From the NCBI GenBank assembly GCA_958295785.1, contig OY282377.1:5582896-5646895 (forward strand): a stretch of 64,000 nucleotides of DNA, written 5' to 3'. Made by a program: the position numbers and the translations under genes. This document shows, piece after piece, positions 2,538-63,123 of the stretch; within the stretch, counting starts at the first letter, position 1; each line of letters opens with the position of its first letter. Origin of the DNA: an uncultured Latescibacterota bacterium (lineage in GTDB: Bacteria; Latescibacterota; UBA2968). The notes beneath the pieces are model-generated. The model did not search any database, was not told the DNA's origin, and saw only the letters and a list, made by a program, of their open reading frames with translations.

Positions 2538-4160
2538 CTAAAAATAAGTATTGAGACGCATTTCCACGCCTTTGAACGGCAGTACCTGATAGCAGGTTCC
2601 CGACGTGCAGGCCGTGCCGCCGCGCCGTTCGCCCGCAAAGAGGATGGCGTCTAAATGCGTGCCAAATCGCGCATTGAGATTGAGGGAATAGAAGGTGCGA
2701 CTGCCCGTTTCAATCTCGAACGTTTCCGCGCGATCTACTTCAAACGGGTCTGTCGTGTGATCCGCGACAAGGGCCGCGCCAAAGCCGCGTTTGTGTTGTA
2801 CGGAGAACGCGCTGTATGCGTTGGAGAAACTCGGTTCGTCTTCAAAGTGGACAGCGCGTTGATATTGAATGTCTAGACCGAGCGTGTGTCCCTTAGTGGT
2901 TGTGGTTTCCAAAGTCGCGCCGGCCGTGCGGTGCCTGTCAATGCTGTGGAGGTCGTCTTTGCCCCAGTTGTAAAAGATCGTGGCACTCAGATTGTCAAAT
3001 TTGTACAAATCAAAAGCCAAGTATCTTTCCTTAAAAAAGGTCTGTACAGTCGGTGCCAAATCATTGCGCGCATAGCTGATGTTGGCCGTGACATTGCCCA
3101 AATCGGGTTGCGTATAGGTGGCCTCAATCTGATAGCCCTGCTCATTGGAGAGCAACAGCACATGGGTGGATCGGTTGAGCAAAAAGGCCGCGTGTTCGCG
3201 GACGAGCGAAGGCGGATCGTTGAAGCCGAAGGTCAGGTTGTCGTAATTTTTGTATTCCACACTCAATCCCAAGTGCGCGCCGCCCACATTGCCCGACAAA
3301 TAGAGACCGTGCCCTTCAACGCCGCTTTCTCGCCGTGTGTATTCGCCGTAAAAATTTCCGTAAAAGCCCGTGTTGCCCAGAAAGGGCGACAGGTCGAGAT
3401 CGGCAAACCCAGACCACGCCCAATTGTTTGCAACGAGGGAATCCTTGGGCGCGATGTGAACGCCCGTGACCCCAATTTTGAGATTGGCAGTGGGCCTCGC
3501 GGCAAATTCACCGCCCGTCACCCAATCGCCGCGGCGGGAAACACCGCGCGGGGGCGTGCCGGTTTTGGCGCCCGGGGGAATGTCACTCAGCACCGGACGA
3601 CCGATCAAGGCTTTGGCCTCCAAGCGGTTGCCTGTCCAGGTGGCTATCGCGCCTTCGAGGTCTTGCACGGGGGAATAGCGCAGGCGATAAATCGCATCTT
3701 CGAGCACCACGCCGGGCAATTCAAATGCGCGCAGCGTGAGGCCCCGCCCGAGAATCGCGTAGTAATTGCCGATCTCCAAGCGCGCAGAGCCGTTGTTCCA
3801 CCGCGCGTATTTCTGGGTAATTTGGTACGTTTCCCGGTTCGCGCCCCATGTGTTATAGACCTCTGCCCGCAAACCGGCCTGCAAGCCTTTTTGCGTAAAG
3901 TCGATGTTAAACTGGTTGTAGGCCGTGGAGATGGCTGTCGAGTCAGAACCCGGCACTTCGCCGCGTTGCACTTCCATGAGACCCGCGATGGTCATTTGCG
4001 CGGAAACGGGCGCCGCAAAGGCCACGAGCAACCACAGATAAACAGAGATAAACGCAGAGCAAGCCCTATTATTCCGTGCATGGGCGGAAGTTGTGTTTAT
4101 CACTAACGTAGAGGCGCGGCCCCTGTGCCCGCCTGAATTTAGCAACCTACTCGCGTTCAT
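2538..4160 (-). CDS. Predicted outer-membrane beta-barrel protein
   Basis: 540 residues. A hydrophobic segment ending PVSAQ (about 38-55) looks like a signal peptide. The rest alternates aromatic, Gly and polar residues as barrel strands do and ends in Tyr-Phe, a typical barrel C-terminus. It resembles proteins annotated DUF6029 or 'porin-like' in other phyla, but I cannot name a substrate. The ATG overlaps the end of the TlpA-like gene by 14 bp, so the two are probably co-translated and the barrel may be a client of that thioredoxin pathway. The N-terminus is odd: the first 35 residues are not signal-like, and the DNA for the hydrophobic core (4028-4060) is an 'accacagataaacagag'-type intergenic repeat, so a GTG farther in (about 4103) is a possible true start. 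Confidence 0.7.
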   Translation of the reverse strand: MNASRLLNSGGHRGRASTLVINTTSAHARNNRACSAFISVYLWLLVAFAAPVSAQMTIAGLMEVQRGEVPGSDSTAISTAYNQFNIDFTQKGLQAGLRAEVYNTWGANRETYQITQKYARWNNGSARLEIGNYYAILGRGLTLRAFELPGVVLEDAIYRLRYSPVQDLEGAIATWTGNRLEAKALIGRPVLSDIPPGAKTGTPPRGVSRRGDWVTGGEFAARPTANLKIGVTGVHIAPKDSLVANNWAWSGFADLDLSPFLGNTGFYGNFYGEYTRRESGVEGHGLYLSGNVGGAHLGLSVEYKNYDNLTFGFNDPPSLVREHAAFLLNRSTHVLLLSNEQGYQIEATYTQPDLGNVTANISYARNDLAPTVQTFFKERYLAFDLYKFDNLSATIFYNWGKDDLHSIDRHRTAGATLETTTTKGHTLGLDIQYQRAVHFEDEPSFSNAYSAFSVQHKRGFGAALVADHTTDPFEVDRAETFEIETGSRTFYSLNLNARFGTHLDAILFAGERRGGTACTSGTCYQVLPFKGVEMRLNTYF

Positions 4161-4647
4161 CTGAGGCTTCCTCTTTGGGTAATAGGGTTTCTAATGCGTT
4201 GATGAGCGGTTGCACGTCGGACAGCCCGGCCTGCCGCAACACGATTTCTCGATCAGGTGCGATGAGGAGCGTCGTGGGCAAGGCCCGAACTTGCATGCGC
4301 TTCATAACCGCGCCATCGGCGTCAATGGCGATGGGAAAGGTGATTTTGCGCCCTTTTAGGAACGGGCGAATGCGGTTTTGACCGCGAGGGCCATCTTCGT
4401 TAATGCCCAAAACCGCGACGCCTCTCTCGGCGTATTTGGCGTGGATTTCCTCCAACTTGGGCATCCCCTTGATGCAGGGTTTGCACCACGTCGCCCAAAA
4501 GTCGAGTATCACAGGGCCTTTTTTCAAAAGCGCGGACAATTGTATCCGCTCGCCATTCGGGGCTGGCAGGTTAAAATCGGGTGCTTCGGTTGCCCGCGCA
4601 GTTGAGGCGATGAACAGGCAGAACCACAGGACGAGAAATTTTTTCAT
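4147..4647 (-). CDS. TlpA-like periplasmic thioredoxin
   Basis: 166 residues with a clear signal peptide (MKKFLVLWFCLFIASTARA). The AhpC/TSA-redoxin fold follows: PDFNLP, a WATWCKPC active site near 52-59, GINEDG, and a cis-Pro region RALPTTLLI. Proteins of this type reduce or shuffle disulfides in the periplasm, often for cytochrome c maturation or for particular outer-membrane partners. No cytochrome genes are nearby; the only partner in the unit is the overlapping barrel gene. The start is supported by GGAGGTGATT six bases upstream. A TTGACA box 17 bp from TTAATT precedes it. Confidence 0.9.
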   Translation of the reverse strand: MKKFLVLWFCLFIASTARATEAPDFNLPAPNGERIQLSALLKKGPVILDFWATWCKPCIKGMPKLEEIHAKYAERGVAVLGINEDGPRGQNRIRPFLKGRKITFPIAIDADGAVMKRMQVRALPTTLLIAPDREIVLRQAGLSDVQPLINALETLLPKEEASDERE

Positions 4648-4985
4648 GAATCACCTCCGGGAAGAATGGTGGAACAGCGTCCAACGATTGGACCGCCTGA
4701 TCATAATTAAGACCATTTAATGCCTTGTGTCAACTATCTGTTGTCACTCAAGCGCGTGTTGATTTTCTTGCCGATCAACTTTTAGTGCCCTATTTTATTT
4801 GCTGATGTTACGCACATTAGCATAGACGTTGCTTGCTTGTTCAAGGGCTTATGATGATAAACCGTTGCTTTTTTTTCGATGCCTTCGGCGTCAAACGCTC
4901 AAATTACTCGCGGTTGCATCGCTTAACTTGCACTGGTTGAACCAGAGCGGTCAATCATGGTCAACAGAAAAGGATCAGGTCTATT
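4648..4985. other. Divergent intergenic region
   Basis: 338 bp between the minus-strand thioredoxin gene and the plus-strand oxidoreductase. It is AT-richer than its surroundings and holds the thioredoxin promoter. I see no further gene, tRNA or clear hairpin. The oxidoreductase promoter must lie here but no box is convincing. Confidence 0.5.
4705..4733 (-). promoter_or_regulatory. Promoter of the TlpA-like/barrel operon
   Basis: On the minus strand TTGACA (4733-4728) is followed after 17 bp by TTAATT. The box is perfect at -35 and weak at -10. It lies about 60 bp upstream of the TlpA-like start. Confidence 0.45.
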
Positions 4986-6035
4986 ATGATTTCAATAGGT
5001 ATTGTCGGATTGGGATTTATGGGAATGACGCATTACAGGGGCATTCGGAAGGTGCGGGGGGGCGAAGTGGGGGCAATCTGCACGCGCGATCCGAAAAAGC
5101 GAGCGGGAGATTGGCGCGGTTTGGGGGGCAATTTTGGCGAACCGGGTGGCGTGGAAGATCTGTCGGGCATCCGCACATACGAGAAAATTGACGATCTGCT
5201 GTCCGATGAGGCCATCGATCTGGTCGATATCTGCCTGCCGACCGCGCAACACTGCGAGGTTGCCATTGCTGCTATGCGAGCGGGCAAGCATGTGCTGGTC
5301 GAAAAGCCCATCGCGCTCGGCCTTGAAGACGCCGACCGCATGGTGCGGGTTTCCGAACAGACGGGACGGTTGATGATGGTCGCGCAGGTTTTGCCCTTTT
5401 TTCCCGAGTTTGCCTATCTCAAGCAGGTGATTGAAGGTGGGGAATACGGCGAGGTGCTCGGCGCGCATTTTAAGCGCGTCATTTCGCAACCCAATTGGTC
5501 GTCCGCATTTGCCAACATGGAAAAGAGCGGTGGGCCGGGCGTTGATTTGCACATCCACGATACGCACTACATCATGGTGGCGCTCGGGCGGCCAGACCGC
5601 GTGGTGTCGTCGGGCAGGCTGGTGCAAGATCGGTATGTGGAATACATTTCCACGAGTTATCAATACGATAGCCAGCCGGATTTGTGCGTCACATGTGCTT
5701 CGGGCGCGATTTCTCAGCGCGGGCGGGCGTTTACACACGGGTTTGAGGTCTATTTGGAGCGGGCGACCGCGCTGTATGAATTTTCGACCTTGCGCGGCAA
5801 ACCCGTTGTGACCATGCCCGCGACATTGCTGACCGATGATGGCGAGGTGCGCGAGCCGGACTTGGGCGATGGCGATCCCGTCGTTGCATTTGCCCGCGAA
5901 ATTCAAGCCGCCGTGCATGCTGTGGAAACCGGCGAGGTTGCCAGTGAACTTTCAGGAGAAAATGCCGCCGACGCCCTGCGTCTGTGCTTTGCGGAAGTCG
6001 AATCCGTAAAACGCAGACGGGCGGTGAGGGTTTAG
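4986..6035 (+). CDS. Gfo/Idh/MocA-family oxidoreductase
   Basis: 349 residues: an NAD(P)-binding Rossmann domain (GLGFMGMTHYRG near 8-19, then DLVDICLPTAQH and VEKPIALGLEDADRM) and the C-terminal GFO_IDH_MocA domain. The EKP motif that carries the catalytic Lys is present, and GPGVDLHIHDTHYI supplies the usual His/Asp of the substrate site. Enzymes of this family oxidise sugars, inositols or sugar acids, and the substrate cannot be read from sequence. The gene stands alone. AGGATCAGG lies just upstream of the ATG. Sulfatases and a heparinase-like protein elsewhere in the window make a carbohydrate substrate plausible. Confidence 0.92.
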   Translation: MISIGIVGLGFMGMTHYRGIRKVRGGEVGAICTRDPKKRAGDWRGLGGNFGEPGGVEDLSGIRTYEKIDDLLSDEAIDLVDICLPTAQHCEVAIAAMRAGKHVLVEKPIALGLEDADRMVRVSEQTGRLMMVAQVLPFFPEFAYLKQVIEGGEYGEVLGAHFKRVISQPNWSSAFANMEKSGGPGVDLHIHDTHYIMVALGRPDRVVSSGRLVQDRYVEYISTSYQYDSQPDLCVTCASGAISQRGRAFTHGFEVYLERATALYEFSTLRGKPVVTMPATLLTDDGEVREPDLGDGDPVVAFAREIQAAVHAVETGEVASELSGENAADALRLCFAEVESVKRRRAVRV

Positions 6036-49688: not shown

Positions 49689-52046
49689 ATGACCGACTGG
49701 ATATTACAATTATGGGTCGGTGAACGCGCTGCCGCGTATCGAGATGCGTGGTTTGTGTTGGACATTGCATGGCCTGTGGCAGGGGTCTTGCTCGGTGCTG
49801 TTTTTTGCGCGAGCGCGTGGTTTTGGCACAAGCGGTTGCCCGCATTTCCAAAGGCGTTGATTGGGGTACGCGCGTTGGCATTAACGCTGGTGCTGTTTTT
49901 GTTTTTGGGCCCCGTGCTGGTGGCGCAACGGTTGGAGCCCGGCACGCATTTTGTGCCCGTTTTGTTTGACGATTCCCGCAGCATGACCGTGCCCGAACAC
50001 GATAGACAGACGCGCGCAGAGCGATTTGTGCAGGCATACCGCGAGTCGGGATTTGAGCGCGCATTGGCGCGGACCCATCAGGTGGCGCGATTTCGGTTTG
50101 GCAAACGCACAGCGCGGGTCAATGGTGTCGCAGACCTCGGCTTTGATCGGGCGCGGTCAAATATCGTCGGCGCAGTGCGCGATGTCCTCCGACAAATGTC
50201 GGGCGCTGAGGTATCGGCTGTGGTGGTGTTTAGCGATGGCATTCAGCAAAGCGATGCGCCCGCGCCGCTGGCGGATTTACCCAGCGATGTGCCCGTTTTT
50301 ACCGTGGGAACAGGGCGCGATGGGCACTGGCGCGACTTGGCATTGGCCAATGTGTCCGCATCGCATGTGCGAGACGATGAAGTGGCGGTGACAGCGCGGG
50401 TGATGGCCGAGGGGTTGGTCGACGAAGAGGTGACCGTTGAAATGCGGGATGGCGCGCGCGTGGTGGCGTCATCATCGCTCGCCATTTCAGAGGCCGAAGA
50501 AGAACACTACGTCCGCCTCGAGTTTCACCCGCAAAGAGAGGGTTGGCGGGTTTATCGCGTGCAAGCGCGCCTATCCGATACCACAGATGTGCGGGCAAAA
50601 GACCGCATTGCCGCGAACAACGCACGGGATATTTTGATCGACCAGCGCGTGCGCGTTTTTCGCATTTTGTATTTTAGTGGGCGGCCCAATTGGGAGGGCA
50701 AGTTTTTGCGCCGCGCCTTAGACGGGGATCGGCAATTGGCCCTGTCGAGTCTGCTCCGCATTTCCGGGCCCGAGCGCAAGTTTGTATTTCGAGGACGCGA
50801 CGCGACCATGGCCAATCCCCTGTTTGAAGGCTTTGACGATCAGGCGTTGAACGCGCCGCGCTATGACGAGGCGGTGTTTATCCGCATTGGCGTGTCAAAA
50901 TCCGAGTTGGCGAGCGGCTATCCATCTGCGGCATCCGCGCTTTTTCGCTACCATCTGGTGATTTGGGGGGATATCGAGCGCGAGTTCTTTTCCCTTGCCC
51001 AACTCGATCTAACGCGGGAATTTGTGTCCAAACGCGGGGGCAGTTTTTTGATGCTGGGCGGGCCGCGTGCGTACTCAGAGGGCGGGTGGGCGCGTTCGAC
51101 TATCGAGCCGATGTTGCCCATTGTGTTAGGGCCTGCGGGCGATTACGACGATGTGGCGTTTCGCGCGAAGCCAACCATTGATGGCCTCTTGTCCGGGGTG
51201 TGGTCTCTGAGTGACAATGCCGAAGCCAATGCCGAACGGTGGGCGAATTTGGCCGCGCTTTACGGGGTCAATGCGTTTGCCGCTGTGCGCGCAGGCGCGA
51301 CCGTAATGGCAACTGTAGATGCCGATGCCGATGCCGTGGATGGACAGCCCCTGTTCGCATGGCAGCGGTACGGCGAGGGCTTGAGCGCGGCACTGGGCAC
51401 GGGCGAGACGTGGCCGTGGCAGATGATGCAAAGCGGCGAAGATGTGGCGCACGAACGCTTTTGGCGGCAATTGGCGCGGCTGCTGGTCATGCGCGTGCCC
51501 GAGCCCGTGACGATGATCCACAGCGGCGAAGATGTGTTGGTGGGCGAAATGCGCGAATTGCAATTTGCGGTGCGCGATTCACTTTTTGAACCCCGCGAGG
51601 GGCTGTCCGTCGATGTGCGGGTCGAGACGGAAAACGGCGGTGTTGTCACCTTACCGGTTTCTGAATCTATCGCCGAGGTAGGGTCTTATACCGCTGTTTT
51701 TGAGCCTGTAGAACCAGGTCTGCACCGCATCACCCTGACCGCACGCGGCGCCACGGGCGAGGATGTGGGGCGGTTGGACGCGGCTGTGCTGGCGCGAGCC
51801 GATCAGCGCGAGTTTGAGACTGCGCGTTACAATCCGGATTTTTTGCGGCGTTTGTCCGCACACACGGGCGGTCAGTTTTTCGCGCTGGACGACCTCGACC
51901 AATTGGCCGAGCAAATTCCGTGGACCGATAACGCGCATGCGCGACTGGATCGTTTTCCATTGTGGCACCGCCCGCCTTTTTATATTCTACTCGTGTTGTT
52001 GCTTTGCGTGGAATGGTATTTGAGACGAAAGCGGGGCGAGCCGTGA
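49689..52046 (+). CDS. Membrane protein with vWA-like and glutamine-amidotransferase-like regions
   Basis: 785 residues. Two or three N-terminal membrane helices (about 25-80), a vWA-like part starting with VLFDDSRSM (about 92), an altered MIDAS-type motif (DxSxS with Arg), and SAVVVFSDGIQQSD. Beta-sandwich segments come next, then at about 325-460 a flavodoxin/GATase-1-like fold (LIYFSGRPNWEGKF-type start and GGSFLMLGGPRAYSEGGW). A final membrane helix lies near 760-775. The layout matches proteins found beside BatA/MoxR clusters in many phyla. The role is unknown, possibly envelope-stress or complex assembly. The stop overlaps the GTG of the caspase-like gene by four bases. Confidence 0.8.
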   Translation: MTDWILQLWVGERAAAYRDAWFVLDIAWPVAGVLLGAVFCASAWFWHKRLPAFPKALIGVRALALTLVLFLFLGPVLVAQRLEPGTHFVPVLFDDSRSMTVPEHDRQTRAERFVQAYRESGFERALARTHQVARFRFGKRTARVNGVADLGFDRARSNIVGAVRDVLRQMSGAEVSAVVVFSDGIQQSDAPAPLADLPSDVPVFTVGTGRDGHWRDLALANVSASHVRDDEVAVTARVMAEGLVDEEVTVEMRDGARVVASSSLAISEAEEEHYVRLEFHPQREGWRVYRVQARLSDTTDVRAKDRIAANNARDILIDQRVRVFRILYFSGRPNWEGKFLRRALDGDRQLALSSLLRISGPERKFVFRGRDATMANPLFEGFDDQALNAPRYDEAVFIRIGVSKSELASGYPSAASALFRYHLVIWGDIEREFFSLAQLDLTREFVSKRGGSFLMLGGPRAYSEGGWARSTIEPMLPIVLGPAGDYDDVAFRAKPTIDGLLSGVWSLSDNAEANAERWANLAALYGVNAFAAVRAGATVMATVDADADAVDGQPLFAWQRYGEGLSAALGTGETWPWQMMQSGEDVAHERFWRQLARLLVMRVPEPVTMIHSGEDVLVGEMRELQFAVRDSLFEPREGLSVDVRVETENGGVVTLPVSESIAEVGSYTAVFEPVEPGLHRITLTARGATGEDVGRLDAAVLARADQREFETARYNPDFLRRLSAHTGGQFFALDDLDQLAEQIPWTDNAHARLDRFPLWHRPPFYILLVLLLCVEWYLRRKRGEP

Positions 52047-53930: not shown

Positions 53931-53975
53931 ACAGACGCCCCGTGCCCGCCCGTAGATTTTTTGGAGGCCATCTCG

Positions 53976-54401
53976 ATGAGCAGGGTCAAGTTGGCATTGC
54001 CCGAGACGTTTCACTTCACAACCGAAATCCCGTTGCGAATTTCGGACATCAATTACGGGGGGCATCTCGGCAATGACGCGGTATTGTCCGTGTGTCATGA
54101 CCTGCGGGTGCGTCTTTTTGCAGCGCATGGGTTCACGGAATTGGATGTGGAGGGTGTGGGGATTGTGATGGTCGATGCCGTGATCGTTTTTCAAACCGAG
54201 GCGTTTTACGGCGAGACCCTCGTGGGCGATGTGGCTGTGTGCAATTTTTCGCGCACGGGTTGCGATGTGTTTTACCGGTTGCGCGCAAAGTCCGATGATC
54301 GAGAGGTGGCGCGTGCGAAGACCGGGATTGTCTTTCTCGATTACGGCAATCGAAAAATCAAACCCGTGCCCCAAAGGTTCAGAAAAATTTTTGAGGGCTA
54401 A
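53976..54401 (+). CDS. Hot-dog-fold acyl-CoA thioesterase
   Basis: 141 residues from the ATG at 53976 (GGAGG eight bases upstream). The 4HBT signature is [14 protein letters not shown] near 25-38; the Asp and the long helix [14 protein letters not shown] are typical. [17 protein letters not shown] and [10 protein letters not shown] complete the fold. It hydrolyses acyl-CoA thioesters, chain length unknown. Between PhyH and the ThuA-like gene it may serve the same catabolic route (inference). Confidence 0.88.
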
Positions 54402-54471: not shown

Positions 54472-55125
54472 ATGGGCAAAAAAGCCTTGATGGTATGGGG
54501 CGGTTGGGCCGGGCACGAGCCCGAGCAATGCGTGGATATTTTCGCGCCGTTGCTGAAAGAAGATGGGTTTGAGGTGGATGTGCGCGATTCAATGGATGTG
54601 TACACCGATGCGGATTACATGGCGGAATTGAGCGTTGTTGTGCCGTGCTGGACAATGGGCAGTATTGAAAAAGAACAGGAGCGAGGGCTTCAAGAAGCGA
54701 TTAAAAGCGGCGTTGGCCTGGCTGGGTGGCACGGCGGAATGTGCGATGCGTTTCGCAACAACACGGGCTATCAGTGGATGACGGGCGGGCAATGGGTGGC
54801 GCATCCGGGCGGGGTGATCGATTATGAGGTCCATATTGTGCCCGACAAAGCCGACGATCCCATTGTGGCGGGGTTGCGCGATTTTGCGATGCACTCCGAA
54901 CAGTATTACATGCACACGGACCCGGGCAATGAAGTGCTGGTCACAACGACATTCGAGACCGATGTGGCCCCGTGGGTCAATGGTTGCGTGATGCCGGTGG
55001 TGTGGAAACGCATGTGGGGCAATGGCCGCGTGTTTTACTCGTCACTGGGTCACAAAGCCGTGGATTTTGATGTGATAGAGGCAAAGGAGATCCAGCGGCG
55101 CGGGATAAACTGGGCCGCGCGTTAA
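54472..55125 (+). CDS. ThuA-like domain protein
   Basis: 217 residues, ATG with AGGAGATAA upstream. It has a class I glutamine-amidotransferase-like fold: [17 protein letters not shown] at the start, [15 protein letters not shown] near 85 (the elbow has Gly-Gly where amidotransferases have Cys), and [14 protein letters not shown] near the end with His. ThuA proteins were linked to trehalose use and are frequently found in carbohydrate clusters; the reaction is undefined. It ends 16 bp before the tRNA-Cys promoter. Confidence 0.88.
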
Positions 55126-55141
55126 GAGCAAAGACCCCCCC

Positions 55142-55170
55142 TTGACATTCAGCCCAAAGTTCAGTATCTT
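55142..55170 (+). promoter_or_regulatory. tRNA-Cys promoter
   Basis: TTGACA, 17 bp, TATCTT, 29 bp before the tRNA. Confidence 0.75.
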
Positions 55171-55199
55171 AACCCGTCACAAAACAAGCGCGCATGCAA

Positions 55200-55274
55200 G
55201 GCGCCGTGGCCAAGTGGTAAGGCAGAGGCCTGCAAAGCCTTTACTCGGCGGTTCGAATCCGCCCGGCGCCTCCA
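55200..55274 (+). tRNA. tRNA-Cys (GCA)
   Basis: 75 nt. Acceptor GGCGCCG/CGGCGCC, anticodon arm GAGGCCTGCAAAGCCTT with GCA, T-loop GTTCGAATC, discriminator T and encoded CCA. Confidence 0.96.
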
Positions 55275-55280
55275 AAAATC

Positions 55281-55319
55281 AACCGGTCAATCTCAGCGTA
55301 TAGATTGACCGGTTATTTG
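55281..55319 (+). terminator. tRNA-Cys terminator
   Basis: AACCGGTCAATCT and AGATTGACCGGTT form a perfect 13-bp stem, then ATTTGT. It is the left border of the restriction-modification unit. Confidence 0.75.
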
Positions 55320-55333
55320 TATGGGAAAACGAG

Positions 55334-56722
55334 ATGATGACAAAAGAACAAATCGGCCGCCTAAAAAAACGCGACAACGGGGCTTTGGAAAGCTTGGTGA
55401 AAAATCACTCGGATGGCAAAAGCCTGCTGTTCATCTTGCAAAACCTCGGCTATCTGCCCAAAAATTTTGATGATCGCTGGGTCGCGTCCCTCATCTCAAA
55501 CCCCAATCAAAAAGTGCGGCTCTGGTCTGTCAAAACCCTGGGAAAGACCAAGCGAGAGGAAAACCTACGCATCCTCAAGCGCGTTGCCCAACGCGATGAA
55601 GCGACGGAAGTGAGACGCGAGGCGGTTTCTTCTATCGGCAGAATGCGATCCCCTGCCATTGTTTCGGTCTTGTTTGAATTTTTGAATGACGATGATCCCA
55701 AAATTGTTTTGCAAGCGATCCGGGGGCTTCTCGCCTTTAAGCGCGACGCGAGTGTGAGCGAGCGACTCAAATCGTTTCGCAGGCACCCGAATGAAATGAT
55801 CCACAAAGTCATTGAGAGGGAATATTTTCCCGCCGAGCACGACGCGCTTCCCGCACAAGCGCATCGAGATACCTATAATTTCTTAAAAAATGCCATCGTT
55901 TTGGGCGATGTGCGGGCGGTGTTAAATGCCGTGCCGGATGAGAGTTTTCACCTCACGTTCACGTCCCCGCCCTATTACAATGCGAGGGACTATTCCATTT
56001 ACAAAAGTTATCAGGCGTATTTGGATTTCCTCAAAGAGGTTTTTCAGCTCACCCATCAAAAGACAAAAGAAGGGCGTTTTCTGATCGTCAACACATCCCC
56101 CATTATTATTCCACGAGTGAGCCGGCAACACGCGAGCAAGCGATACCCCATCCCCTTTGACATTCACAATTTTCTGGTCGAGATGGGTTGGGAATTTATC
56201 GACGATATCGTCTGGAAAAAGCCGGAAACGAGCGTCAAGAACAGGAACGCGGGATTTTTGCAACACCGCAAGCCGTTGGCGTATAAACCCAATGTCGTCA
56301 CGGAATACGTGATGGTTTACCGAAAAGAAACAGACAAGTTGATCGATTGGAACATACGGCAATACGACCAGAAAACCGTATCTGAAAGCAAAGTTGAAGA
56401 TGGGTATGAGACCTCAAATGTTTGGGAAATCGCCCCCAAACACGACAAGGTGCATTCCGCGGTGTTCCCGGCCGATCTGTGCAGGAGAGTGGTGAAATAT
56501 TATTCCTTCAAAGGGGATTTGGTTTTTGACCCCTTCGCCGGCAGTGGTACGTTTGGCAGAGTGGCGAAGAGCCTGAACAGATTTTTCTTTTTGACCGAGC
56601 AAGAGCCAAAATACTTTGAGTATATGAAAACCTTCCTCGTCCAGCGCAATATGTTTGACGAAGAATCGGCCAAGAGTGATTTTTTGACGCTCGACGAGTT
56701 TAGAGAGAGAACAAAAACATGA
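55334..56722 (+). CDS. HEAT-repeat/DNA methyltransferase fusion of a type II R-M system
   Basis: 462 residues. About 1-165 is helical with HEAT-like repeats (VRLWSVKTLGKTK, VRREAVSSIGRM, PKIVLQAIRGLLAF). The methyltransferase follows (about 180-450): motif IV TSPPYYNARDY, then IVWKKPE, and motif I FDPFAGSGTFGRVA, the beta order; S-P-P-Y suggests N4-cytosine. The reading frame overlaps the endonuclease by four bases. HEAT repeats may bind DNA or the partner. No clear promoter is seen; translation starts 19 bp after the tRNA terminator stem with GGGAAAACGAG upstream. Confidence 0.92.
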   Translation: MMTKEQIGRLKKRDNGALESLVKNHSDGKSLLFILQNLGYLPKNFDDRWVASLISNPNQKVRLWSVKTLGKTKREENLRILKRVAQRDEATEVRREAVSSIGRMRSPAIVSVLFEFLNDDDPKIVLQAIRGLLAFKRDASVSERLKSFRRHPNEMIHKVIEREYFPAEHDALPAQAHRDTYNFLKNAIVLGDVRAVLNAVPDESFHLTFTSPPYYNARDYSIYKSYQAYLDFLKEVFQLTHQKTKEGRFLIVNTSPIIIPRVSRQHASKRYPIPFDIHNFLVEMGWEFIDDIVWKKPETSVKNRNAGFLQHRKPLAYKPNVVTEYVMVYRKETDKLIDWNIRQYDQKTVSESKVEDGYETSNVWEIAPKHDKVHSAVFPADLCRRVVKYYSFKGDLVFDPFAGSGTFGRVAKSLNRFFFLTEQEPKYFEYMKTFLVQRNMFDEESAKSDFLTLDEFRERTKT

Positions 56723-57630
56723 CACTGACCGAACAAGTCGCAAAAAACATCATCAGAAAATTGCTCAAAGGTGAGGATTACAGAATCGAGATCGTCGCCC
56801 TCATAAACGCCGAATTTTTGCAATTTGCAATCGAATTTTTCAAAAAGGTGATCGTTGCAAAATTCGCGCATCAAAGGATAACGATTGACTGGTACAAAAG
56901 GGCATTTCTCGATCCCGACCTCCCAAAAGAAGATATAGCCATCAACTCTGGATTAAACATGAAAACCATCGGCAATATGTTTAATTCGAGCAGGAAAGAA
57001 GTCGTGATAGATGCGTCCAATAACCATTACGATACACTGTACGAATCCATCGTGAAATTGGCAGATTCAGAGGAAGACCTCGACTTGACATTGACGCTGA
57101 AATTTCAAGGTGTGAGCGTGGATTTGAATGTCAGTGAGACGTTGATCGTCATCAACACCCTCGCCGTTAAAAGAGCCGCATTGAGAGGGGGATTGTGGAG
57201 CACGGCGGGAAAAAGGGTCGAAAAGCCGCTCATGCAAACATTATGCAAATTATACGGCGTTTCCGAAGAACATTACACGGCTGAACTGAAGGGGCAGGGC
57301 GGGCAAGCGGATTTTACGCGGGAGATCGATTTCTACTTGATCAAAGATGACGCGCATTACAAATGCGAAGTAAAGCTGATAGGAAAGGGCAATCCCGAAA
57401 GTGCCGATGCGGTTATCGCAAGGGATAGCGAGGTCTTTGTCGCGGATAAGCTCTCGGAGACAAACAAGCGACAACTCGATAGCTTGGGTGTGGAATGGGT
57501 CGAATTGAGAACTGCGAATGGCTTTCAGAAATTTAAAACCATATTGGAAAGGCTCGACATACCGTTTACAGATGTCGATTTGAGAAACTTGGAATCGAAT
57601 GTTGAAAGGATATTCGATGATATTTTTTGA
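56719..57630 (+). CDS. Restriction endonuclease, probably CfrBI family
   Basis: 303 residues. The C-terminal half has TREIDFYLIKDD and YKCEVKLIGKGNPESADA near 210-230: D, then E-x-K, a PD-(D/E)XK active site in the form I recall for CfrBI-type enzymes (recognition CCWWGG in CfrBI). The N-terminal half is helical with ITIDWYKRAFLDPDLPKEDI. Family length fits. The neighbour is an N4-type methyltransferase, as expected for that system. The recognition site here is not determined. The unit ends at the tRNA-Leu promoter, 22 bp after the stop. Confidence 0.8.
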   Translation: MTLTEQVAKNIIRKLLKGEDYRIEIVALINAEFLQFAIEFFKKVIVAKFAHQRITIDWYKRAFLDPDLPKEDIAINSGLNMKTIGNMFNSSRKEVVIDASNNHYDTLYESIVKLADSEEDLDLTLTLKFQGVSVDLNVSETLIVINTLAVKRAALRGGLWSTAGKRVEKPLMQTLCKLYGVSEEHYTAELKGQGGQADFTREIDFYLIKDDAHYKCEVKLIGKGNPESADAVIARDSEVFVADKLSETNKRQLDSLGVEWVELRTANGFQKFKTILERLDIPFTDVDLRNLESNVERIFDDIF

Positions 57631-57652
57631 CCTGTACCTAAAAAATGTATGT

Positions 57653-57681
57653 TTGACAAGCAGAGGGACTTTGCCTATTTT
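57653..57681 (+). promoter_or_regulatory. tRNA-Leu promoter
   Basis: TTGACA, 17 bp, TATTTT, nine bases before the tRNA. Confidence 0.75.
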
Positions 57682-57690
57682 TGATGTAAT

Positions 57691-57775
57691 GCCGAGGTGG
57701 TGAAATTGGTAGACACGAGGGACTTAAAATCCCTTGGGCGAATCGCCCGTACGGGTTCGAGTCCCGTCCTCGGCA
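57691..57775 (+). tRNA. tRNA-Leu (TAA)
   Basis: 85 nt with a long variable arm (CTTGGGCGAATCGCCCGT). Acceptor GCCGAGG/CCTCGGC, anticodon loop ACTTAAAAT with TAA. The 3-prime CCA is not encoded (CTT follows the discriminator), unlike the fMet and Cys genes. Confidence 0.95.
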
Positions 57776-57783
57776 CTTTACAG

Positions 57784-57813
57784 AGCTCGGTCATCTGCCG
57801 AGCTTATTTTTTT
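57784..57813 (+). terminator. tRNA-Leu terminator
   Basis: AGCTCGG pairs with CCGAGCT around seven bases, then TATTTTTTT. Confidence 0.85.
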
Positions 57814-57987
57814 ACAATTTCTGGATTTGAGAGGAATCTCGTTGTGATTTTTCGACACGGGGGGGCGGCCTGACCGCGCATAGCTTGTTTTGCTGACAAC
57901 TGCGGGCGGGCACGGGAGCACCGCCCCTACGTTTCTATCCTCGCATCTTACCTTTTACCGCTGACCGCTGACCAACAGGAGAAAACC

Positions 57988-59902
57988 ATGCTTTCGCAAA
58001 CGTATTCCAAAGACATATTGCGCGATGTTTTGATTCCCCTCGATGAATGGCGACCATTTCCAACCGCGTCAATGCGCGATGCTTGGGAGGCGTTGCCCGA
58101 GCGCGTTCGGCAAGTGCAAATTGAGCGGGGAGAAGAACGCCTGAATTTTGAATGGCCGCCCGTGCCTGCGGCGCGCTTTTTGGATTATGCGCGCAATGGC
58201 AATCGCTCGCGCTACGAAGCCCTGAGTTTTGGGCGACGCGCTGGCCGATCTGGTTCTGGCCGAATGCGTGGAGGGCAAGGGCCGATTTTTGGACGAGATC
58301 ACAAATGGCGTGTGGTGCATTTGCGAAGAGTCATTTTGGGGCGTGCCCGCGCATATTGGCGTGCAAAAGGCCGGCAGTGGGTTGCCCGATACAGCCGAGC
58401 CGATTGTCGATCTCTTTGCCGCAGAGACCTCGGAATTGCTGGCGTGGACCGTTTATTTGCTCGGCACGCAACTCGACGCGGTCTCGCCTTTGATCGCGCC
58501 CCGCATTGTGCGCGAAATTCAATACCGCATTTTGACGCCGTTGGCGGAACGCGATGATTTTGGTTGGATGGGCTATTCGGGGGCGCGCGTGAACAATTGG
58601 AATCCGTGGATCGCGTCGAACTGGCTGACCTCAAATTTGCTGGTGGAAGCCGATGAGGCGCGCCGGGTTTCCGCGGTGTTCAAAGCGATGGAGACGGTGG
58701 ATCATTTCATCGATTCCTATCCGAAAGATGGCGGTTGTGACGAAGGCCCCGGCTATTGGGGCCGCGCGGGCGCGTCGCTCTACGACTGTTTGGAATGGCT
58801 ACACAGCGCGACCCATGGCGCGATAGACGTGTACGACGACCCCCTGATTCAAAATATCGGCAAGTTCATCTATCGCGTGCAAATTGCCGATCAATACTTC
58901 ATCAACTTTGCCGATGCGTCGCCCGTGGTGACGCCCGCCTTTGGCGTGGTCTATGGCTATGGCAAGCGCGTTGGCGATGACGCCATGATGGCATTGGGCG
59001 CGTGGGCATTAAAGCGACAAGGCGCCGCCGAGAAGGGCATCACAGAAGCGTTTGGGAGCATGGGGCGCGCATTGCCCGCGCTGTTTTCGCTGAATGAAAT
59101 CCTCGACGCAAAGGCCGCGATGCCCCTGCCGCGCGATGTGTTTTTGGATGAAATTGAGGTGTTTGTCGCACGCGACCGCGCCGGATCGTCCGATGGATTT
59201 TTTGTCGGCGCGAAGGGCGGGCACAATGCCGAGAGCCACAACCACAATGACATCGGGCATGTGGTGGTCTATGTCGATGGCAAACCCGTGATCGTGGATG
59301 CCGGCGTAGAGACCTATACGGCCAAGACGTTTAGCAGCGAGCGGTATGAAATTTGGACCATGCAATCCCAATACCACACCTTGCCCACGGTGAACGGACA
59401 CATGCAACTTCCCGGGCGGGTGTATTCCGACGCGGGGATCGACTATCACTACGATATTGCCGCGCGAGATGTGTCGCACGGGGCAAGCGATGCAAAAGCC
59501 ACCTTCGCGCTGGACATTGCACAAGCCTATCCGCCCGAAGCGCAGATCGATTCGTGGGTCAGAACCGTCGCCTTGGACCGCGGCGAGGGCGTGACCATTA
59601 CAGACCAGTACGCGCTGAAAGCCGTAACCGGTGATCTCGTCATGCATGTATTGACCGCCTGCGCGGTTGAAGATCGCGGCGATGGCACACTCGCCCTGAA
59701 CGAGGCGAAATTGGCAGATGGTCGCGTGTCGGGCAGCGCGCACTTGCACTGCGATGCCAATTTGTTCGACATCGCGATTGAAGATATCGCGATTGAAGAC
59801 GCGCGATTAAAAGCCGTGTGGGGCGATGTGCTGAGAAGAATCGCGCTGACGGTCAAAAATCCCGAACCCCGCGGCGCGTGGACAATTCGGCTGACGCGAT
59901 GA
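57988..59902 (+). CDS. Heparinase II/III-like protein, frameshifted near its N-terminus
   Basis: About 637 residues once one base is removed. Residues 1-75 are read from 57988 (MLSQTYSKDILRDVLIPLDE...RYEALSF); then an extra G in the run at 58231-58233 shifts the frame and the protein continues GDALADLVLAECVEGKGRF. An alpha-toroid region follows, with a heparinase II/III C-terminal domain from about 410: AESHNHNDIGHVVVYVDG, then VDAGVETYTAKTF and YHTLPTVNGHMQLPG. These catalytic motifs are intact. Such enzymes cleave acidic polysaccharides. The frameshift is in a homopolymer and may be a sequencing error. No signal peptide is evident; AGGAG lies seven bases before the ATG. Confidence 0.85.
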
Positions 59903-59958: not shown

Positions 59959-60097
59959 TTGCTGTTGCACGATTTCGATTATGGCAGATTCAGAGAATCT
60001 AAGGTGCCGGTGTAGCCACTTTCAGAAAGCTTTGACGAGGCATGATGCACTTTGACAAGGCGAAATTTTGCATATCTAATTTTGACCAACACAAGAT

Positions 60098-60114
60098 ATA
60101 GAGTCGCTACATAA
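60098..60114 (+). repeat. Left direct repeat around the Rpn array
   Basis: ATAGAGTCGCTACATAA, repeated exactly at 63413-63429. The 3.3 kb between holds only the Rpn gene, its partial copies and one IS. Confidence 0.75.
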
Positions 60115-60127
60115 CATCCGCTATTCA

Positions 60128-60160
60128 AAAGGAGCAAGCCCCTGTGACTTGCTCCTTTTT
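60128..60160 (+). terminator. Hairpin beside the Rpn array
   Basis: AAAGGAGCAAG and CTTGCTCCTTT form a perfect stem with a nine-base loop followed by TTTTT. It could end the minus-strand Rpn transcript or a plus-strand one. Confidence 0.65.
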
Positions 60161-60583
60161 TTTGATCATTCATCGGGAAATTGCGTCACTCCACAGCATC
60201 CAACACGCGCTGAAATGCCTCCAGATTATTGACTTGCACCGCTGCATGAAGCAACTGCTTGAGCCGCTGCAAATCGTCGATGACCGCAATGCGATCAGCG
60301 AATTGTCCGGCCACACCCGCATCAAAGCGAATCGCCAACGCTTCTCGGATGCTCTCTTGGATGCCTCGCTCAATGCCCTGCTCAATGCCCTGCTCAATGC
60401 CCTGCTCAATGCCCTGCTCAATGCCCTGTTTAACGCCCTGTTTAACGCCCTGTTCCTTGATGTATTGGGCAAATGATGACTCACGCATAATCGCGTCCAT
60501 AAGACCCTCCTGCGAAATAATTCTCGTGATGGTGGTCGGCTCATAAGCCAACCCACTCAATACAGCCAATCCACCTAAAAAAT

Positions 60584-61637
60584 GGGAATTATATACTTGA
60601 CAACCTAAATCTTCTTGTTAAAGTAATCACGGGTTTTTGGTGTTGAATGCAAGCGCCCTCTGATTTTCGGCACGCCTGCCCCTAACATCTGGCGTTTCAA
60701 AACGTTTTCCTTCGCGTCTTTCAGGAACGGATAACATTTGCATGCGTGGATAAGATTTCCCGTTGACTTCCATATCGCCCGCCTGTGCCCTAAAGGTTGT
60801 TCATGCAACCCCCTCACTGGCTATAAGTTGCTTGTAAGTCAACCGGGCGCCCATCGCCCTATTCAACATCTCATCAACACGACTTAAGGTATCAACCTTT
60901 TTTCGATTGATGCGAAACACGCAAGCATTCAGGTCCTTTTGCATGTGTTTGTCTGACCCATGGTGATGAATACCCATATAGACACGCTTAACCCGTGCCC
61001 ACAAACTCTCAATGGCGTTCGTATGGACACCATCGCGTTCATATTCGTCGGCAGAATGATTGATTTGTTCCCCTTCGTAATCATCCCTCAATGCGCCGTA
61101 TGCGCGGTTCTCGTCTGCATGAATAGTTGCGCCCGTCAAGACCTGGTTCAACATCTGATCGTGTCATGTTGCCCCTTTTGCGTCCTGTACATGAACCGCC
61201 ATTGCCTCACCATCTTCACCTTTTTCCCGCATTCCGAAAGCAACCGATTTACCTCCTGTTCCGCGACCAGCATTCAACTTTTTGGATTTATGTTTGTTCT
61301 TTTCTTTGCCACCGATGTAGGTTTCATCAATTTCAACGATACCAGACAGAAAATCATCATCATCGTCTTTGTTGCCAAAAGCGTTTCGTATTCTTTCCGA
61401 GCACCTATACGCCAAATCAGAACGACGATAGATTTTTCCCATACGCCCACAATGCGGACAAGACGCGCCATCCTTAAAGCGTATCTTTTCAAGGTGCAAA
61501 ATACACGCTTCAGGCGTGGCAAACTTCTGTGTGAACGCGACGAAACTAAGCTGCTTTGCCATCATACACCCCCTTGTTAATTCGTAACTTGGATAAATAT
61601 AACAAGAAAGGTTAGGGTTGGAAAGTATATAATTCCC
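60584..61637 (-). mobile_element. IS1595-type insertion sequence
   Basis: 1054 bp. Inverted ends GGGAATTATATACTT (left) and its complement (right). TAAAAAAT is duplicated on both sides (60576-60583 and 61638-61645): an 8-bp target duplication, as expected for IS1595. About 210 bp between the left end and the transposase stop carry no recognised gene. Confidence 0.9.
60801..61565 (-). pseudogene. Degenerate IS1595-type transposase
   Basis: Start ATG at 61565 (AAGGGGG upstream). It shows the zinc ribbon CPHCGRMGKIY...YRCS and the DDE part: VEIDETYIGGKE, TIHADENRAYG, and NAIESLWARVKRVYMG, a good ISXO2/IS1595 set. Two lesions: the segment between YRCS and RIRNAFGNK (about 45 residues in relatives) is missing, and TGA interrupts at 61164-61166. 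So it is inactive. Confidence 0.85.
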
Positions 61638-61738
61638 TAAAAAATTAACCTTGTCTGCCTGATCCAACGAAACTGCATCGGTCTTGCGAATGCACTGACG
61701 CAACCATTCCTCGGATTGTCATTCATCGGGAAATCGCG

Positions 61739-62175
61739 TCACTCCACAGCATCCAACACGCGCTGAAATGCCGCCAGATTATTGACTTGCACCGCTGCAC
61801 GATGCAACTGCTTGAGCCGCTGCAAATCGTCGATGACCGCAATGCGATCAGCGAATTGTCCGGCCACACCCGCATCAAAGCGAACCGCCAACGCTTCTCG
61901 GATGCTCTCTTGGATGCCCTGCTCAATGCCCTGCTCAATGCCCTGCTCAATGCCCTGTTTAACGCCCTGTTCCTTGATGTATTGGGCAAATGATGACTCA
62001 CGCATAATCGCGTCCATAAGACCCTCCTGCGAAATAATTCTCGTGATGGTGGTCGGCTCATAAGCCAACCCACTCAATACAGCCAATCCACCTAAAAAAT
62101 TAACCTTGTCTGCCTGATCCAACGAAACTGCATCGGTCTTGCGAATGCACTGACGCAACCATTCCTCGGATTGTC
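61739..62175 (-). pseudogene. Rpn array unit 2: partial copy
   Basis: The same 3-prime part as in the full gene, 455 bp upstream-to-upstream from unit 3. It reads EEWLRQCIRKTDAVSL...FLGGLAVLSGL...ISQEGLMDAIMRESSF, then five G-x-x-Q units (GVKQ, three GIEQ, GIQE) and ends VLDAVE. No nuclease part. Few substitutions separate it from unit 3, so the duplication is recent. Confidence 0.85.
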
Positions 62176-62193
62176 ATTCATCGGGAAATCGCG

Positions 62194-63123
62194 TCACTCC
62201 ACAGCATCCAACACGCGCTGAAATGCCTCCAGATTATTGACTTGCACCGCTGCATGAAGCAACTGCTTGAGCCGCTGCAAATCGTCGATGACCGCAATGC
62301 GATCAGCGAATTGTCCGGCCACACCCGCATCAAAGCGAATCGCCAACGCTTCTCGGATGCTCTCTTGGATGCCCTGCTCAATGCCCTGCTCAATGCCCTG
62401 CTCAATGCCCTGTTTAACGCCCTGTTTAACGCCCTGTTCCTTGATGTATTGGGCAAATGATGACTCACGCATAATCGCGTCCATAAGACCCTCCTGCGAA
62501 ATAATTCTCGTGATGGTGGTCGGCTCATAAGCCAACCCACTCAATACAGCCAATCCACCTAAAAAATTAACCTTGTCTGCTTGATCCAACGAAACTGCAT
62601 CGGTCTTGCGAATGCACTGACGCAACCATTCCTCTGAATTTATCCCCGCAGGACGCTTCATCAATGGCGCGAAAGGAAGCAAACCCGGATGATCACCTTC
62701 AATAATGCCTTGCCCCTCAATCTCGCTCAACCGAATCACCTTGTATTCTACAAAGACGCGATGACCCAGAAGTTCTTGAGTGTAGGATCCTTTATCGCGT
62801 CGTCCGGCATTGGGACGCAGGTAGATCACAAAGGAATAGACAGGCAGGCCATAGTGTTCAATGAGTCGAATGATATAGGAGGCCATGCGGATCGGCATGG
62901 GCGTGTCCGTGCTGTCCGCAGTTTGAAATTCGATGTGTACCAGTGCATCCTCGCCATCAATCCGCACGCGAATCAAGCTATCGATTAAGCGCGTTTCGAC
63001 CGTGGGTTGCTCGGTTTCGAGAATCTCGTCGACCTCGACATCAGCACGTCCAAGTATGAAACGGACGATGTCTTGCGGGTAAGTTTGAATCAGGCGTTTG
63101 GAAATCGTGTCGTACTCTGCCAT
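62194..63123 (-). CDS. Rpn-family PD-(D/E)XK nuclease-like protein (complete copy)
   Basis: 309 residues. The N-terminal domain (about 5-120) is of the Rpn/DUF4351 type: ISKRLIQTYPQDIVRFILG, then RVRIDGEDALVHIEFQTADS, with D and E-x-Q as a nuclease core, and YSFVIYLRPNAG. Rpn proteins promote DNA recombination and include GIEQ-type tails in many genomes. At about 235-258 the tail has six four-residue units: GVKQ twice, GIEQ three times, GIQE. It is the only complete copy; two partial ones lie downstream. Start ATG at 63123, with AGGTATTTAT upstream. Confidence 0.88.
   Translation of the reverse strand: MAEYDTISKRLIQTYPQDIVRFILGRADVEVDEILETEQPTVETRLIDSLIRVRIDGEDALVHIEFQTADSTDTPMPIRMASYIIRLIEHYGLPVYSFVIYLRPNAGRRDKGSYTQELLGHRVFVEYKVIRLSEIEGQGIIEGDHPGLLPFAPLMKRPAGINSEEWLRQCIRKTDAVSLDQADKVNFLGGLAVLSGLAYEPTTITRIISQEGLMDAIMRESSFAQYIKEQGVKQGVKQGIEQGIEQGIEQGIQESIREALAIRFDAGVAGQFADRIAVIDDLQRLKQLLHAAVQVNNLEAFQRVLDAVE

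Follow-up and report, generated by a model that had tools for sequence, protein, structure and literature searches.

The window that we analysed, a stretch of 64,000 nucleotides from an uncultured Latescibacterota bacterium, carries a restriction-modification (R-M) pair between the genes for tRNA-Cys and tRNA-Leu(UAA). Our overall account is that an intact Type II R-M operon of the CfrBI family arrived horizontally and was inserted into the old spacer between the two tRNA genes. We put the probability of this account at about 0.82. It builds on the identity of the genes, their conserved motifs, the junctions, the empty sites in relatives and the direction of change, all of which the analysis establishes. 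The features of the locus are listed in Table 1.

Table 1. Features of the tRNA-Cys/tRNA-Leu locus, in window positions.
Feature	Position	Strand	Basis or remark
tRNA-Cys promoter-like site (TTGACA-17-TATCTT)	55142..55170	+	consensus match only
tRNA-Cys (gca)	55200..55274	+	match in 10/11 genus genomes
Terminator-like hairpin 3' of tRNA-Cys	55281..55314	+	also in aligned genus genomes
Inserted segment, ~2.31 kb	55329..57642	+	alignment with 6 empty sites; low G+C
DNA methyltransferase (M), 462 aa	55334..56722	+	HEAT repeats N-terminal plus N6_N4_Mtase domain
CfrBI-type restriction endonuclease (R), 303 aa	56719..57630	+	RE_CfrBI; PADLOC REase_II
tRNA-Leu promoter-like site (TTGACA-17-TATTTT)	57653..57681	+	left intact by insertion
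tRNA-Leu (taa)	57691..57776	+	match in 11/11 genus genomes, G010 match partial

The original prediction took both genes for R-M genes, and each is indeed recognised by curated profiles. R matched the Pfam family RE_CfrBI at 1.8e-22, with 80.3 bits against a cut-off of 25, which places it in that family. It matched PADLOC REase_II at 3.4e-113. M and R are separate, side-by-side genes, which is the Type II layout, and their open reading frames overlap by four bases, as had been claimed. The pair is a Type II system of an already known sort, with an endonuclease of the CfrBI family. CfrBI, whose host is Citrobacter freundii, has the site CCWWGG. This sequence occurs at 38 sites in the window, compared with a mean of 56.5 in 100 shuffles, a comparison made against shuffled sequence only.

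M contains the motifs TSPPYYNARDYS and DPFaGsGT, and R contains the conserved stretch REiDFYL...CEVKLiGkGNPESAD. The TSPPY and DPFaGsGT motifs of M and the D...ExK pattern of R, which we take to be the catalytic and cofactor motifs, fall in columns that are at least 97% conserved across 38 sequences including the window's. Both catalytic motif sets appear intact. The SPPY in M is presumably a sign of N4-cytosine methylation. The N-terminal region of M, which holds the HEAT repeats in the window, aligned from one of residues 1-12 onward in 35 of the 39 homologous loci that have M. When compared with solved structures, this part of M matched designed or synthetic repeat proteins only. R matched designed repeat proteins only, and those matches were taken as meaningless. 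In the window's genome, the single match of R was R itself, and M had 15 weaker matches of at most 42% identity over part of its length.

The distances claimed at the two edges were exact. There are 19 nt from the hairpin end to the ATG of M and 22 nt from the stop of R to the -35 box of tRNA-Leu. The empty spacer, counted on G006, has only about 22 nt between the stem of the tRNA-Cys hairpin and the TTGACA of tRNA-Leu. The tight fit of the pair between the tRNAs reflects a small insertion into a short spacer. The region with the hairpin (55275-55335) folds at -20.8 kcal/mol with a z of -4.4.

We compared the tRNA spacing in related genomes, which was the check proposed with the original prediction. 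The genus set has 11 genomes, of which 10 were readable; in G010 the first base of the contig already falls within the tRNA-Leu match, which makes this genome unreadable here. The tRNAs are adjacent without an insert in 6 of the 10 (G002, G004, G005, G006, G008 and G009). The flanks are joined directly in G005, G006, G008 and G009, and in G002 and G004 the alignment shows a few differing bases at the join. Three more (G001, G003 and G007) have a PhyH gene of ~1.0 kb in the spacer, identified by Pfam on the G003 copy. None of the nine readable genus relatives has the R-M pair at this place. The same genes here in all relatives would have spoken for old vertical inheritance; 0/9 carry them.

The order of the two tRNA genes was also read outside the genus. 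A tRNA-Cys locus was obtained from 8 of the 10 genomes of the family and order, and ARAGORN placed tRNA-Leu(taa) downstream of it in 7 of them. The eighth (G011) has a partial tRNA-Leu cut by the contig end, which was read by eye. The upstream ThuA gene is present in 7/8 of these loci (tblastx). Further out in the class, 24 genomes matched and 15 loci were read, 14 with tRNA-Leu(taa) by ARAGORN. For G035 the evidence is a match of 42 bp (88%) with the part of G011 that was read as tRNA-Leu. Across the class the Cys-Leu order is kept in 33/33 loci read, two of them on partial evidence, with 9 more matched loci unread. Spacer lengths in the measured loci outside the genus run from 9 to 803 nt. 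Since the order held in every locus read, the adjacency is ancestral and the R-M pair an insertion on the branch of this genome. By this comparison the pair is a lineage-specific insert of ~2.31 kb.

Under old vertical inheritance, the pair would have been present here in the genus ancestor and then lost from every other lineage. The nine relatives are closely clustered, with 92-98% nucleotide identity among themselves right of tRNA-Leu, and therefore count as few independent lineages. The window's genome stands apart from them, at ~84% at the ThuA-tRNA-Cys flank, which leaves some room for this explanation. However, each loss must leave a spacer that is alignable end to end, and no R-M remnants were seen in the alignment of the six empty sites. 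Of the eight family and order loci, four have a spacer no longer than 117 nt, and the longer spacers of the other four have no R-M similarity; in nine non-genus spacers, mostly longer ones, tblastx at E up to 0.01 gave no similarity to R-M or PhyH. The G+C of the insert is 46.7% versus 54.0% for the window, and only 1 of 617 same-length windows, one overlapping the insert, is as low. We consider loss in all other lineages very improbable and prefer insertion on this branch.

The left flank of the insert ends ...TTGTATGGGAAA and the right flank resumes at AAATGTATGTTTGACA. The only repetition at the junctions is AAA, and the insert edges are uncertain by a few bases. No target duplication was found around the insert beyond these 3 nt common to both junctions, and the repeat search gave no inverted pair at the two insert ends. 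GGAAAA also lies directly before M in the G007-type copy (L012), which would allow for about five bases of homology between the incoming and the target DNA. The joining may have taken place by end-joining at such short homology and not by site-specific integration.

The R-M and PhyH insertions both lie inside the ~22-nt gap between terminator and promoter, within ~10 nt of each other as the alignment was judged by eye. Because the gap is so short, insertion elsewhere in the spacer would damage the signals of a tRNA gene. Selection against damage to the terminator or promoter would account for the exact fit, with no site-specific enzyme needed. A sequence preference at the insertion point is a possible alternative to selection.

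The original prediction was of insertion at a tRNA hot spot. One part stood, namely insertion between two formerly adjacent tRNAs, with 6/10 sites empty and the order kept class-wide. The part that implied an integrase-type hot spot did not. A classical integrase-borne tRNA island is not supported by the locus, where the insert has no integrase gene, no duplicated tRNA end lies at the far junction and the insert begins after the tRNA-Cys hairpin. It might still be that an integrative element attached at the 3' end of either tRNA gene and that decay has since left only the R-M pair. In favour of this, the spacer is enlarged by different DNA in G001/G003/G007, G011, G012 and G024/G032, and the sequence right of tRNA-Leu also differs in the window's genome from the shared flank of the nine relatives. 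The junctions largely refute it, since the insert starts past the hairpin of tRNA-Cys and stops before the promoter of tRNA-Leu. Furthermore, the repeats in 54900-58000 are only 11-22 nt long, no attachment repeat was found as a copy of the tRNA end at the far junction, and M and R fill the insert. We give little credence to a decayed element of this kind.

Synteny with the relatives is short: compared with G008 and G006 stretches on the same strand, it starts at 49690, and with the nine relatives it ends at 57779. The window at 57777-59902, right of tRNA-Leu, differs from all nine, which have a common flank. The first 3.2 kb of the G006 right flank, with a transketolase-domain gene, matches near 2.5 Mb in the window's genome. 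The alignments indicate that the right side of tRNA-Leu is a rearrangement breakpoint in this genome. Further right (within 59980-62400), an IS1595-type transposase on the - strand is split over two frames (60801-61154 and 61164-61703). On either side of it lies a copy of an ORF with QGIEQG repeats, and 300-nt repeats occur at 60083, 61636 and 62091.

Another explanation is that there is no hot spot: gene turnover would be general in this neighbourhood, and the insert one instance of it that drew notice only because this spacer was inspected. Within the same 8-kb block, whole genes also come and go in the PhyH-ThuA spacer, which is 593 nt in the window's genome (G000) versus 1106-1720 nt in 8 measurable relatives. 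In this spacer, a thioesterase-like gene (Pfam 4HBT_2; window 53961-54401) is present in 4/9 readable genus genomes (G000, G003, G005 and G008), a count that leaves out G004, whose contig starts too late. Against mere turnover, several different long inserts or enlargements occur at this one tRNA spacer across the class. We regard general turnover as quite possible, at somewhat less than even odds.

We also scanned 50 other loci with R-M homologues for tRNAs. The set includes several loci that are short or truncated next to the pair, one locus in duplicate (L012 and L114) and the distant homologues L137-L140. A tRNA lies within 200 bp of the pair only in L015 and within 1 kb also in L022, and 7/50 contain any tRNA at all. 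On this count, a general tRNA proximity of the R-M family was rejected. Taken together, the turnover of the PhyH-ThuA spacer and the rarity of tRNAs near the R-M family argue for a permissive spacer and not for a tRNA integration hot spot. The term "tRNA hot spot" therefore holds weakly.

Relatives of R were found at 44 loci in one-per-species genomes by a pattern-based scan that takes close relatives only. At 39 of these, M is found upstream of R; the two are adjacent at 38, and at L045 a gap of 1.3 kb separates the end of the M match from R. Five loci remain: at L050, L051 and L053 the contig breaks off beside R, and no M was seen at L047 and L054. The R relatives are filed under many phyla, among them Patescibacteria, Bacteroidota and Ignavibacteria, and also under archaea. 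A tree built from 38 concatenated M and R sequences places the window's pair as sister to L012 (support 1.000), amid loci with mixed labels. As a whole, the scatter of labels fits horizontal spread. RE_CfrBI occurs in 7/47 class genomes. Within the genus, a near R copy is present in G007 at another place, and the copies in G006, G009 and G010 are distant and gave no tblastn match with the window's R.

The best genome-contig match of R (77%) is L012, which is VXYV01000095.1 (1-7049) and is filed under a Gammaproteobacteria MAG. From 1646 on, L012 shares 99.7% identity with contig C61 of G007, a genome of the window's own genus, over 5.4 kb. Its first 1546 bases match G007 contig C169, and at 1546/1547 this match stops exactly as the R-M homology with the window sets in. 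A gammaproteobacterial source was rejected, as the identity to C61 shows L012 to be most likely mis-binned. Its label is evidently wrong, and single MAG labels are thus not to be trusted. Short dispersed repeats with many copies in genus genomes lie around this G007 R-M copy, at 534-650 and 6421-6458 of L012. The R-M pairs of the window and of the G007 organism are 76.4% identical at the nucleotide level (R 77% and M 81% in amino acids). Neighbouring genes are 77-84% identical in nucleotides and 82-92% in amino acids. The R-M identity is only slightly below that of the neighbouring genes, so the two copies were not necessarily acquired in separate events.

With R we searched 72,556 plasmid and 50,697 phage records and found no match at E up to 1e-5; transfer by known plasmids or phages was set aside on this result. 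A complete M-R pair with the same 4-bp overlap is present on a phage contig from IMG/VR (L141, IMGVR_UViG_3300028840_000732, 3622-5918), next to tail-fibre-like and virion-protein genes. A phage vehicle is therefore possible. This contig cannot be called the donor because its R identity of 72% is too low.

In the mechanism that we propose, the R-M operon would have entered the lineage horizontally and landed in the tRNA-Cys/tRNA-Leu(UAA) spacer as scarcely more than two reading frames. M would mark a short DNA site, probably at N4-cytosine, and R would cut the unmarked site in incoming DNA. The overlap of the genes would keep both coupled.

The insert starts only ~5 nt before the ATG of M. In a consensus scan, which misses other promoters, no promoter-like site was found on the + strand between the tRNA-Cys promoter and the start of M. 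Expression of the pair may therefore depend on read-through from tRNA-Cys. The T-run of the tRNA-Cys hairpin is weak (ATTTGTAT). Read-through of the hairpin may be the simplest source of M-R transcripts. The hairpin loop of the window's genome contains a TATAGA that the empty sites lack and that might act as a rival promoter; as judged by eye it has no good -35 box. The PhyH insert appears, by eye, to carry its own promoter. A wider reading is that a promoterless two-frame R-M cassette lives on read-through from a strong tRNA promoter, that the leak of the terminator sets the dose of M and R, and that the inter-tRNA gap is a recurrent landing site for bare genes. We consider this wider reading rather unlikely. 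If tRNA read-through is true, it would be a simple route to expression on arrival for a promoterless and potentially self-toxic gene pair.

The window's pair resembles CfrBI in that R scores above the RE_CfrBI cut-off and has a methyltransferase partner alongside. According to PMC12707154, the CfrBI genes are divergent, with overlapping promoters that are switched by methylation. In contrast, the window's genes are in tandem with a 4-bp overlap, which differs from the layout of CfrBI proper. The divergent-promoter control of CfrBI thus cannot operate in the same form here.

PMC3874152 describes the putative mobile R-M systems of Furuta et al. (2010) as inserts with short or ~100-bp target duplications and imperfect terminal inverted repeats. 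The window's insert is similar in being a bare Type II pair, present in one genome, with a readable empty site in relatives. It differs in having at most AAA repeated and no inverted end pair.

The leuX defence hot spot of E. coli (hotspot 37) is an integrase attachment site that holds gene clusters, according to PMC12707154. There, as in the window, defence genes adjoin a tRNA gene. Unlike leuX, the window's insert consists of two genes, has no integrase and lies outside the tRNA. Proximity to a tRNA alone does not imply integrase-driven insertion, and the locus offers a clean natural case, with its empty sites, of a defence pair inserted without a recognisable mobility gene.
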